A DNA stretch of 64,000 bases from contig NZ_CP026309.1 of assembly GCF_002906575.1 (NCBI RefSeq), positions 1,240,001 to 1,304,000 on the forward strand. The letters are read 5' to 3'. The position numbers were made by a program, and so were the translations under genes. Source of the stretch: Salinigranum rubrum. Its GTDB lineage: Archaea > Halobacteriota > Halobacteria > Halobacteriales > Haloferacaceae. Below are positions 60,347-63,928 of this stretch, piece by piece; position 1 is the stretch's first letter, and each line of letters starts with the position of its first letter. The notes below the pieces were generated by a model. The model ran no database searches. It was not told the origin of the DNA and saw only the letters and a program-made list of their open reading frames with translations.

Positions 60347-60985
60347 CTACTCCGACTCGGGTGCGGGGTCGATGAGTACGACCGCCTCGCCGTCGATGAC
60401 CGTCGTCTCGTCCGCCGTCTGCACGACGGTGTCGAGTCGGTACCGGCGGTCGCCGAGGTCCTCGACGATTTCGACGACCGCCGTGAGTTCCGAGCCGATG
60501 TCGACCGGCTTCAGGAAGCGGAGGTCCTGTGAGAGATAGACCGTCATCCCGGGCAGGCGCGCGAGGGCGGAACTGATGAGACCGGACGCGAGGGTGCCGT
60601 GGACGATTCGGCGGCCGAACCGGGTCTCCTCGGCGAACTCCTCGTCGAGGTGGAGGCGGTTGGTGTCGCCGCTGATGCCCGCGAACGCCAGGACGTCCTC
60701 CTCGGTGATTTGCTTCGTGAACCGGACGACGTCGCCGACGCCCAGTTCCTCGTCGGAGTCGACGCTCCGCTCCATCGACCACGACTCCTCCGTGTACGCG
60801 ACGGAATCGACTTCGGGCTCGCGTACCCCGCTAGCGCCGTTTTGACGGGCCAGCATGGCTCGATTGGCCTCGGCGACACTCGAGTACATGTGGACGAAGC
60901 TCCTCGAGACGTGCCTGGACGACTTGAGCCACGCGGACGTCATTCCGCGGACTGGCGCCGTCACGTCCATAGCGCTATATTCCAT
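60347..60985 (-). CDS. MaoC-like dehydratase (PhaJ-type hydratase)
   Basis: This 212-residue protein has a hot-dog fold with the hydratase 2 motif: AFAGISGDTNRLHLDEEFAEET with the catalytic Asp and His, then GRRIVHGTLASGLISSALARLPG. It hydrates enoyl-CoA to (R)-3-hydroxyacyl-CoA, a monomer supply route for polyhydroxyalkanoate. The first 75 residues form a helical extension seen in haloarchaeal pha-cluster MaoC proteins. It is divergent from phaR with 156 bp between. An in-frame ATG five codons in is an alternative start. Confidence 0.88.
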   Translation of the reverse strand: MEYSAMDVTAPVRGMTSAWLKSSRHVSRSFVHMYSSVAEANRAMLARQNGASGVREPEVDSVAYTEESWSMERSVDSDEELGVGDVVRFTKQITEEDVLAFAGISGDTNRLHLDEEFAEETRFGRRIVHGTLASGLISSALARLPGMTVYLSQDLRFLKPVDIGSELTAVVEIVEDLGDRRYRLDTVVQTADETTVIDGEAVVLIDPAPESE

Positions 60986-61053: not shown

Positions 61054-61134
61054 CCCATCTGAACCATCTGGTGGCATTGAATGGTATTAGATGGTTAGAA
61101 TAGTAAACTTTATCCACTCACGGGGACAAGGAGT
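61054..61134 (+). promoter_or_regulatory. phaR promoter with symmetric candidate operator
   Basis: A perfect 8-bp inverted repeat, aaccatct at 61062-61069 and agatggtt at 61089-61096 with 19 bp between, lies just upstream of a TATA-like aactttatc (61107-61114). A further ccatctg (61055-61061) directly repeats the left arm. A ribosome binding site aaggag at 61128-61133 precedes the phaR ATG. Autoregulation by PhaR is known in a related haloarchaeon; that this repeat is the site is inference. Confidence 0.6.
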
Positions 61135-61141
61135 GAACGAG

Positions 61142-61450
61142 ATGACAGACGACCCGGACGATGAAACGCCCATGTGGTCGCCCGCCGCGTTCGCGAAGCA
61201 GATGCAGGAGGCGTCCCAGCAAGCCACCAAGAGCCAGCAGGAGCTGTTCAAGCAGTTCATGCAGGCGTCTTCCGGTGGCATGGACGGTTTCTCGCAGCTA
61301 AACGCGATGAGTATGGGCAGCGCGATGTTCAAGACGCGCGTCCAGAGCGGCGGCCGCATCTCCATTCCCGACGCCGAGCGCGAGGCGCTCGATATCGAGG
61401 AAGGGGACATCGTCCAGGCTATCGTCATCCCCGTCAAACGAAACCGGTGA
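61142..61450 (+). CDS. phaR: PhaR-type AbrB regulator of polyhydroxyalkanoate synthesis
   Basis: This 102-residue protein has an N-terminal helix rich in Gln/Lys/Met (FAKQMQEASQQATKSQQELFKQFM), which could bind granules or phasin, and a C-terminal SpoVT/AbrB DNA-binding fold (TRVQSGGRISIPDAEREALDIEEGDIVQAIVIPV). This is the architecture of haloarchaeal PhaR, a repressor of phaRP. ATG 61142 has a good ribosome binding site; a GTG at 61133 is in frame. phaP starts 6 bp after its stop. Confidence 0.88.
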   Translation: MTDDPDDETPMWSPAAFAKQMQEASQQATKSQQELFKQFMQASSGGMDGFSQLNAMSMGSAMFKTRVQSGGRISIPDAEREALDIEEGDIVQAIVIPVKRNR

Positions 61451-61456
61451 TCCACC

Positions 61457-61909
61457 ATGTCCGCTAACCCATTCAGCACTATGTTCGACATGCAGCGCAC
61501 GTACATCGAAGCCAGCCAGTCCGCGTTCGAGAGCTCCCTGAAGCTCCAGCAGGTCGCGTCCGACGCCTTCCTCGGGAGCTTCGATTCGACGAAGTCGCTC
61601 CAGAAGCGCGGCGTCGACCTGACGAAGCGCGCGACGCTCGCCAACCTCGACGCCGTCGAGGAGACGCTCCCCGCCGACGTCGTCGCCGACCTGCGCGCGG
61701 CGGTCGACGAGCAGTACGAGGCGCTCGACGAGGCACACGACGACGCCTGGGAGGCGTTCGAGCGCTCCGCCGAGGACGCCGTCGACTCCTACGACGAACT
61801 GACCGAGGCGCAGGCCGAGATGGTCGACGAACTGTACGAGTCGCTCCTGCAGGTCAACGCCGAGGCCGCCGAAGTCGCCGAAGAGGCCGCCGACGCGGTC
61901 GAGCAGTAA
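61457..61909 (+). CDS. phaP: Phasin (PHA granule protein)
   Basis: This 150-residue acidic, almost entirely alpha-helical protein starts MSANPFSTMFDMQRTYIEASQ and has heptad-like repeats (VDEQYEALDEAHDDAWEAFERSAEDAVDSYDELT). Phasins coat granules and control their number and size. Its place between phaR and phaE in the canonical order phaR-phaP-phaE-phaC supports the assignment. Confidence 0.88.
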   Translation: MSANPFSTMFDMQRTYIEASQSAFESSLKLQQVASDAFLGSFDSTKSLQKRGVDLTKRATLANLDAVEETLPADVVADLRAAVDEQYEALDEAHDDAWEAFERSAEDAVDSYDELTEAQAEMVDELYESLLQVNAEAAEVAEEAADAVEQ

Positions 61910-61952: not shown

Positions 61953-62501
61953 ATGGCTAACGACATATCCGACATGACCGACGCAACGAACATGGAGTCG
62001 TTCTTCGAACAGCTCTCAGAGACGTACTCGGAGGCGTTCAAGCGCAACCTGGACGCCCAGGCGGCCTTCGCCGACCAGTGGATGGAATCGATGGAGGAAG
62101 CCATGTCCGAGGAGCGTCTCGACGACGCCTCCGAGGGTGCCGTCCGCGCCTACGAGGCGTGGATGGACGCCGCGGAGTCCTCCTTCGAGCGCGTCGGCGA
62201 CGCCCTCGAGGGCGAGGACGTCGATCCCGAGGAGTTCCGCGACATCTGGTTCAACGCCGCCAACAGGGCGTTCAAAGAGTCGATGTCGACGACGGCGTTC
62301 GCCGCCGCGACGGGCCAGAACGTCGAGGACGTCCTCGACCTCCAGGCGCAGATGAACGAGGCCGCCCAGGACACCCTCCACGGGATGGGCTTCGCGACGA
62401 CCGGCGACGTCCGCGAGGTCGGCGAGCGCCTCGTCGAGATCGAGCGTCGCCAGCACGCCATCGAGGAGAAGCTCGACAAGCTCCTGGAGCAAGAAGAATG
62501 A
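61953..62501 (+). CDS. phaE: PHA synthase subunit PhaE
   Basis: This 182-residue helical protein is the regulatory subunit of class III polyhydroxyalkanoate synthase. It starts [20 protein letters not shown] and has long amphipathic helices with [19 protein letters not shown] in the middle and a coiled-coil end ([28 protein letters not shown]). Its stop overlaps the phaC ATG (ATGA), so the two subunits are made in coupled amounts. It follows phaP by 43 bp. Confidence 0.9.
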
Positions 62502-63928
62502 ACCCCTTCACCGCACCGTTCGAGGCACAGCGGAAGATGCTCGAATCGTGGACCGACGCCGTCGAGACGGCCGAGGCCGCGCCCGAGGGCCTCGAGACGA
62601 TGGCTTCGGTCGAGGTAGGTGAGACGCCGAGCGAGGTCGTCTACGAGGAGAACAAGCTCAAACTCCTCCGATACGACGCCGAGGCCGCGGGTATCGAGCC
62701 CGAGGAGACCCACGACGTCCCCATCCTCATCGTCTACGCGCTCATCAACCGGCCGTACATCCTCGACCTCCAGCCCGACCGTTCCGTCGTGCGACGGCTC
62801 TTGGAGGCGGGGTTCGACGTCTACCTCATCGACTGGGGCGAGCCCTCGCTCTTGGACCAGTCGCTGACGCTCGACGACTACGTCAACCGCTACATCGACA
62901 ACTGCGTCGACGAAGTCGCCGAGCGTGCGGGCGTCGACGCCATCAACCTCTTAGGCTACTGCATGGGCGGGACGATGAGCGTCATGTACGCGGCGCTGCA
63001 CCCCGAGAAGGTCCGAAACCTCGGTCTGATGGCGGCGGGCCTCTGCTTCGCCGGCACCGGGGGCATCCTCGAAGAGTGGGGCGACGACGAGTACTACTCG
63101 CCGCGCGACGTCACGGGTGCGTTCGGGAACGTCCCCGCGGAGTTCCTCGACGTCGGCTTCGCGCTCATGGACCCGGTCAACAACTACGTCTCGAAGTACA
63201 CCACGCTGTACGACAACCTCGGGAACGAGGACTTCGTGGAGAACTTCGCCCGGATGGAGCGCTGGCTGTCGGACGGCATCGACCTCGCCGGGTCGACGTA
63301 CGTCCAGTTCCTCGAGGACGTCTACCAGGGGAACAAACTGTACGAGAACGAACTCGAACTGGACGGCAAACACGTCGACCTCGGGGAGATCACGATGCCC
63401 GTCCTCCAAATCGTCGGCCAGTACGACCACCTCATCCCGCCGGAGGCGTCCCGGCCGTTCAACGACGCCATCCCGTCCGACGACGCGACCCTGATGGAGG
63501 AGTCGACCGGCCACATCGGACTGTCCGTGTCGAGCAAGTCACACGCGAACCTCTGGCCCAACGTCGCCGAGTGGTACGCCGAGCGCTCCCGACTCGACGA
63601 CTCGGACGAGGCGGTCGACATCGATGTCGACGGACCCGAGGCCGGAGACGACGAGGCCGTCGACGCCGAGAACGGGACCGTCCACGTCGAGGACGACGCC
63701 GGCGAGGAGGACGAAGACGACGAGAGCGGAGCCGAGGCGTTCGACGACACGGACCTCGACCAGGTTCGCGGCGTCGGCCCGGCCTACGCCGACCGACTCC
63801 GCGAGGCGGGCGTCGGCACCGTCTCCGAACTCGCGGCGGCCGACCCCGAGACGCTCGCGGAGCGAATCGACGTCTCGACGTCGCGGGTCGCCGACTGGGT
63901 CGACCACGCGACCGAACTCACGTCCTGA
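62498..63928 (+). CDS. phaC: Class III polyhydroxyalkanoate synthase catalytic subunit with HhH tail
   Basis: This 476-residue alpha/beta-hydrolase polymerises (R)-3-hydroxyacyl-CoA into polyhydroxyalkanoate. The lipase-box-like GYCMGG has the nucleophile Cys155, with Asp310 (GQYDHL) and His339 (TGHIGLS) completing the triad. The catalytic part ends near residue 362. It is followed by an acidic linker of about 50 residues (Asp/Glu-rich) and a helix-hairpin-helix domain (about residues 419-476: [20 protein letters not shown], then [20 protein letters not shown]). The tail resembles DNA-binding HhH domains, an uncommon partner for PhaC. It overlaps phaE by 4 bp. Confidence 0.95.

Follow-up and report, generated by a model that had tools for sequence, protein, structure and literature searches.

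What does the C-terminal tail of a haloarchaeal PHA synthase do? In the window (the whole stretch of 64,000 nucleotides analysed from Salinigranum rubrum), phaC is the final gene of the known haloarchaeal cluster, followed by an SDR-like gene beyond the window, and its product ends in an acidic linker and a helix-hairpin-helix (HhH) domain. The genes concerned are as follows.

60347..60985, minus strand: maoC-like dehydratase gene, divergent from phaRPEC (PF01575, 5.5e-23)
61091..61450, plus strand: phaR-like regulator with an AbrB-like C-terminus (TIGR01439 AbrB, 3.4e-5, below cut-off)
61457..61909, plus strand: phaP-like haloarchaeal phasin, named from the published cluster order (PMC7137286)
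61953..62501, plus strand: phaE, synthase partner subunit (PHA_synth_III_E, 26.7 bits, cut-off 25.7)
62498..63928, plus strand: phaC, catalytic subunit of a class III (subtype IIIA) PHA synthase, 476 aa (TIGR01836)

The published haloarchaeal order is maoC-phaR-phaP-phaE-phaC (PMC7137286), and the neighbourhood is well retained elsewhere, with phaE adjoining phaC in 80/80 loci, and phaP-like, phaR-like and maoC-like genes present in 79, 79 and 78 of these 80, respectively. The phaC ATG at 62498 overlaps the phaE stop, and its own stop codon occupies 63926-63928. The protein scores 394.1 bits against TIGR01836, above the curated cut-off of 365.3, in an alignment that reaches aa ~362; the lipase-like box G-x-C-x-G-G is present as GYCMGG, the Cys-Asp-His triad (C155, D310, H339) is invariant among 46 sequences, and mean column identity over the core is 81% (103 sequences). 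Profile score, box and triad, and the adjacent phaE gene together place the enzyme in class III, and the 114 residues that follow the core, an extension missing from bacterial class III PhaC, place it in subtype IIIA. Annotated Priestia and Rhizobium PhaC coding sequences (~362 and ~368 aa) end where the haloarchaeal core ends, and reviews likewise put the end of bacterial class III PhaC at the core (PMC7137286). The parts of the window protein are:

62609..63583, plus strand: catalytic alpha/beta-hydrolase core, aa 38-362 (Abhydrolase_1 and PhaC_N matches)
63584..63748, plus strand: acidic linker, aa 363-417, predicted disordered (composition, pLDDT, dN/dS)
63749..63925, plus strand: C-terminal HHH_5 domain, aa 418-476 (PF14520, AlphaFold, match to RadA N-terminal domains)
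63770..63778, plus strand: G-V-G hairpin of the HhH, aa 425-427 (G425 100% and G427 99% conserved)

The initial annotation had read the end of this protein as an acidic linker leading into a module resembling HhH domains, a reading that is borne out, and the open reading frame, frame and coordinates that it gave are correct. HHH_5 (PF14520) matches aa 419-471 with 46.4 bits (E 5.8e-12; gathering score 27), and a search of the PDB with a profile of 52 homologous tails returned archaeal eL32 (2.7e-9) and Rad51/RadA (1.8e-7); the same profile also aligned with double homeobox 4, but over just 21 residues, and these matches were rejected as chance. An AlphaFold model of the tail, built with the 52 homologous tails, has a mean pLDDT of 97, and its best matches in VIA-align are archaeal RadA N-terminal domains (Z 11.0, rmsd 1.1 A, 59 residues), followed by NusA AR2 bound to SuhB (6ib8; Z 9.8) and Hel308 (Z 9.0). 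Foldseek gave a probability of 1.00 and a best E of 9e-3, weak as expected for 59 residues. By score, GhG hairpin and RadA-like predicted fold the tail is a member of HHH_5, and the prospect that it would lack any structural counterpart among HhH domains is thereby set aside. Among ~100 homologues, G425, G427, Y430, A431, L434, G438, L445, D449, A454, R463 and W467 are each conserved at 90-100%, including 92% for the basic R463 of the final helix, a degree of conservation far beyond chance.

A potential explanation for such a tail is an artefact, namely a frame error or gene fusion confined to this assembly, and the initial annotation had likewise raised the prospect of a tail missing from all relatives through a local frame change. 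A census was run with the core-only profile TIGR01836 on 292 haloarchaeal genomes, to avoid bias towards the tail, and it detected PhaC in 161 of them, representing 52 of 77 genera. The HhH lies in frame in 88/90 haloarchaeal PhaC open reading frames from this core-only list, 20 of which were chosen mostly for short open frames, and the tail was found in the same frame at all 28 PhaC loci fetched among 60 relatives. It is thus near-universal, a C-terminal module that haloarchaeal (subtype IIIA) PhaC carries as standard. In the second PhaC of the window genome, core and HhH are indeed separated by a frame break (below), yet the main copy is intact and 87-93% identical to the full-length PhaC of three Salinigranum congeners; for the main copy the artefact is refuted, and we give it practically no credence. 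A haloarchaeal-type phaC with 58% identity and the tail also lies on a contig labelled Salinivenus sp. (L083; from a metagenome-assembled genome named as a bacterium), probably through mis-binning of the contig and possibly through transfer.

Six tail-less copies were found in total (L112, L133, L134, L135, L171 and L172), and all of them are second paralogues in genomes that also keep a tailed PhaC. Four of the six end at the core or soon after it. In L172 (1640-1980), the second PhaC of another genome, an in-frame TAG stands between core and HhH. The orphan second PhaC of the window genome itself (L112:4333-5662, on G000 contig C3, 198 kb) retains an intact HhH in a frame that differs from that of the core, and may be naturally tail-less, in decay, or the product of an assembly error.

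The two parts of the tail differ in how they evolve. In the window protein, D and E make up 48% of the linker over 52 residues. In the full-length AlphaFold model pLDDT falls below 50 for aa 369-416, which predicts disorder for the linker, best read as a flexible arm. Among homologues it ranges from 6 to 143 residues (median 53), with HhH scores holding at 60-93 bits, and in orphan PhaC paralogues (L136, L137 and L138; two Salinigranum species and Hfx. mediterranei pHME505) ~110 residues of unlike sequence replace the acidic linker and the HhH is kept. Comparison of four Salinigranum genomes gives the core the lowest dN/dS (0.08-0.13), with the HhH at 0.15-0.32 and the linker at 0.33-0.85. Purifying selection acts on the HhH, whereas the linker has drifted in both sequence and length, and these patterns suggest that the conserved functional element is the HhH, not the acidic arm. 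The same observations bear on the idea that the extension mainly keeps PhaC soluble or folded at high salt, the HhH having no specific partner. An acidic linker would suit such a role, but that linker shows little conservation and has been swapped for a different segment in some paralogues, and solubility alone would not preserve an invariant hairpin together with Y430, R463 and W467; we consider this explanation improbable.

The reading that we prefer, with a little short of even confidence, is that the tail is a flexible acidic arm bearing a RadA-like HhH that docks onto a partner macromolecule. PhaC would sit on the granule surface with the arm projecting the HhH into the cytoplasm, where the domain would engage a partner that helps the PhaEC-granule complex to assemble or to work; candidates include PhaE, a further PhaC molecule, or a more general haloarchaeal partner common to HhH-tailed proteins. 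Docking is slightly favoured by the retention of the in-frame HhH (88/90) across the full span of linker lengths and across linker replacement. That the partner is a protein rather than DNA seems somewhat more likely, and several comparisons slightly favour it: the fold is the one that NusA AR2 uses as a protein-docking domain with SuhB (6ib8); related HhH tails appear in models of ribosomal L21 and S2 and of a NADH dehydrogenase subunit; and the domain is very acidic, its closest relatives in the genome being the tails of two other proteins, L116 and L129. The best structural matches of the predicted fold, RadA/Rad51 N-terminal domains, would argue against a protein partner.

Those matches point instead to DNA, and the N-terminal domain of human RAD51 has been described as DNA-binding. 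A nucleoid tether, in which the HhH binds DNA non-specifically and granule-bound PhaC ties granules to the nucleoid, is a reading that we regard as possible but rather doubtful, as is its corollary that the tether helps to share granules at division, in the manner of PhaM, PhaF and PhaH in bacteria. The RadA-like fold with its intact GhG hairpin and the conserved R463 are consistent with it, and by analogy with Caulobacter PhaH, where an HhH domain has the same role (PMC13052382), DNA tethering by the tail is possible. The NCBIfam PhaH model (NF045508) matches the PhaC tail weakly (20.9 bits; cut-off 250) and over the HhH part only. Interaction with the nucleoid has already been proposed for Hfx. 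mediterranei PhaC by analogy to PhaH (PMC12028471), and in Nile red/SYBR Green images of that species granules are described as co-localised with DNA spots, contact being untested (PMC8156647).

Charge points mildly the other way, however. The median net charge per residue is -0.193 for the PhaC HhH, compared with -0.134 for the PhaC core, -0.149 for the haloarchaeal RadA HhH and +0.089 for that of the DNA helicase Hel308, and the PhaC HhH is among the most acidic of the HhH sets compared. It holds 3 K/R per 57 residues, averages 0.65 K/R over the first seven positions beyond the hairpin, and lies beside a long negative linker, features that would count slightly against strong, non-specific binding to DNA. 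In RadA the HhH is likewise acidic with equal K+R content, so charge does not preclude DNA binding, and it is weak evidence because haloarchaeal proteins are acidic in general. Also against a tether, C-terminal truncation of haloarchaeal PhaC lowers PHA accumulation, according to reviews that treat the long C-terminus as the defining mark of haloarchaeal PhaC and as required for full activity (PMC6631277, PMC7137286). A loss of PHA synthesis itself is more than a partition defect, although the truncations on record may have extended beyond the HhH. That the haloarchaeal synthase carries its own tether, with no separate PhaM, PhaF or PhaH protein, we think unlikely; if true, a synthase-borne tether would anchor every nascent granule to DNA from the first polymer chain.

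The docking reading allows for a partner shared with other proteins, and HhH domains of this kind are not confined to synthases. The window genome contains ~20 HHH_5 matches, and a PhaC-tail profile ranks L116 (77.9 bits) and L129 (63.0) as its top non-PhaC tails, with RadA at 41.3; relatives of L116 elsewhere reach 85.8 (L029) and 73.6 bits (L030). A match to the PhaC core is absent from the genomes of the latter two (G023 and G020), and hence this HhH subtype is a general haloarchaeal tail rather than PHA-specific. NCBIfam models matched by PhaC tails include RadA, DNA polymerase IV, ribosomal L21, S2 and L32e, and a NADH dehydrogenase subunit. L116 (G000:C1:914375-915268, minus strand) begins with a short segment resembling an amphipathic helix, continues with ~200 acidic residues containing repeated motifs and ends in the HhH; it adjoins an aminotransferase class IV gene, with a Na/Ca exchanger gene close by. 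L129 (G000:C1:1742494-1742670, plus strand) lies in an open frame of 245 aa that combines a small N-terminal domain with the PhaC-subtype HhH and an acidic C-terminus.

The HhH tail of PhaC is already known as an ordinary haloarchaeal feature, and the nucleoid idea is also in print. The HhH domain and disordered part of the Hfx. mediterranei C-terminus were published in 2025 (PMC12028471), while the C-terminus goes unmentioned in two further papers, one from 2026 on haloarchaeal PhaEC and one from 2025 on purification. The present analysis adds a census blind to the tail, shows that tail loss is confined to second copies, compares the constraint on the HhH with that on the linker, and ties the domain to a broader haloarchaeal subtype of HhH tails. 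A tail carried by nearly every haloarchaeal synthase, and retained despite large changes of the linker, offers a good handle on the placement and sharing of archaeal PHA granules, and on the engineering of PHBV producers, and the natural tail-less second copies that stand beside tailed PhaC offer a concrete experiment.

Among known systems, the closest are the PhaC proteins of Haloferax mediterranei and other haloarchaea, which share the core, the phaE partner, the gene order and the long C-terminus (PMC12028471, PMC7137286), and differ from the window PhaC only in the length and sequence of the linker. L116- and L129-type proteins carry the same HhH subtype (63-86 bits), with an acidic linker in the case of L116, but lack a synthase core and are apparently unconnected with PHA. 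The N-terminal HhH of archaeal RadA/Rad51 has the fold of the PhaC tail, a similar hairpin (GVGPAxA) and equally few K/R; RadA is a recombinase, however, and PhaC tails have an additional Tyr following the hairpin and an R-x-x-x-W motif in their final helix, neither of which is present in the RadA of the window genome. PhaM, PhaF and PhaH are known bacterial granule tethers, and the granule-bound PhaH of Caulobacter crescentus has a C-terminal HhH, as PhaC does (PMC13052382), although PhaH is a phasin whereas PhaC is the synthase. PhaM of Cupriavidus necator has a histone-like, Lys-rich PAKKA C-terminus (PMC9049629), a motif not found in the PhaC tail sequence, and shares with that tail only the proposed role of joining granule to nucleoid.
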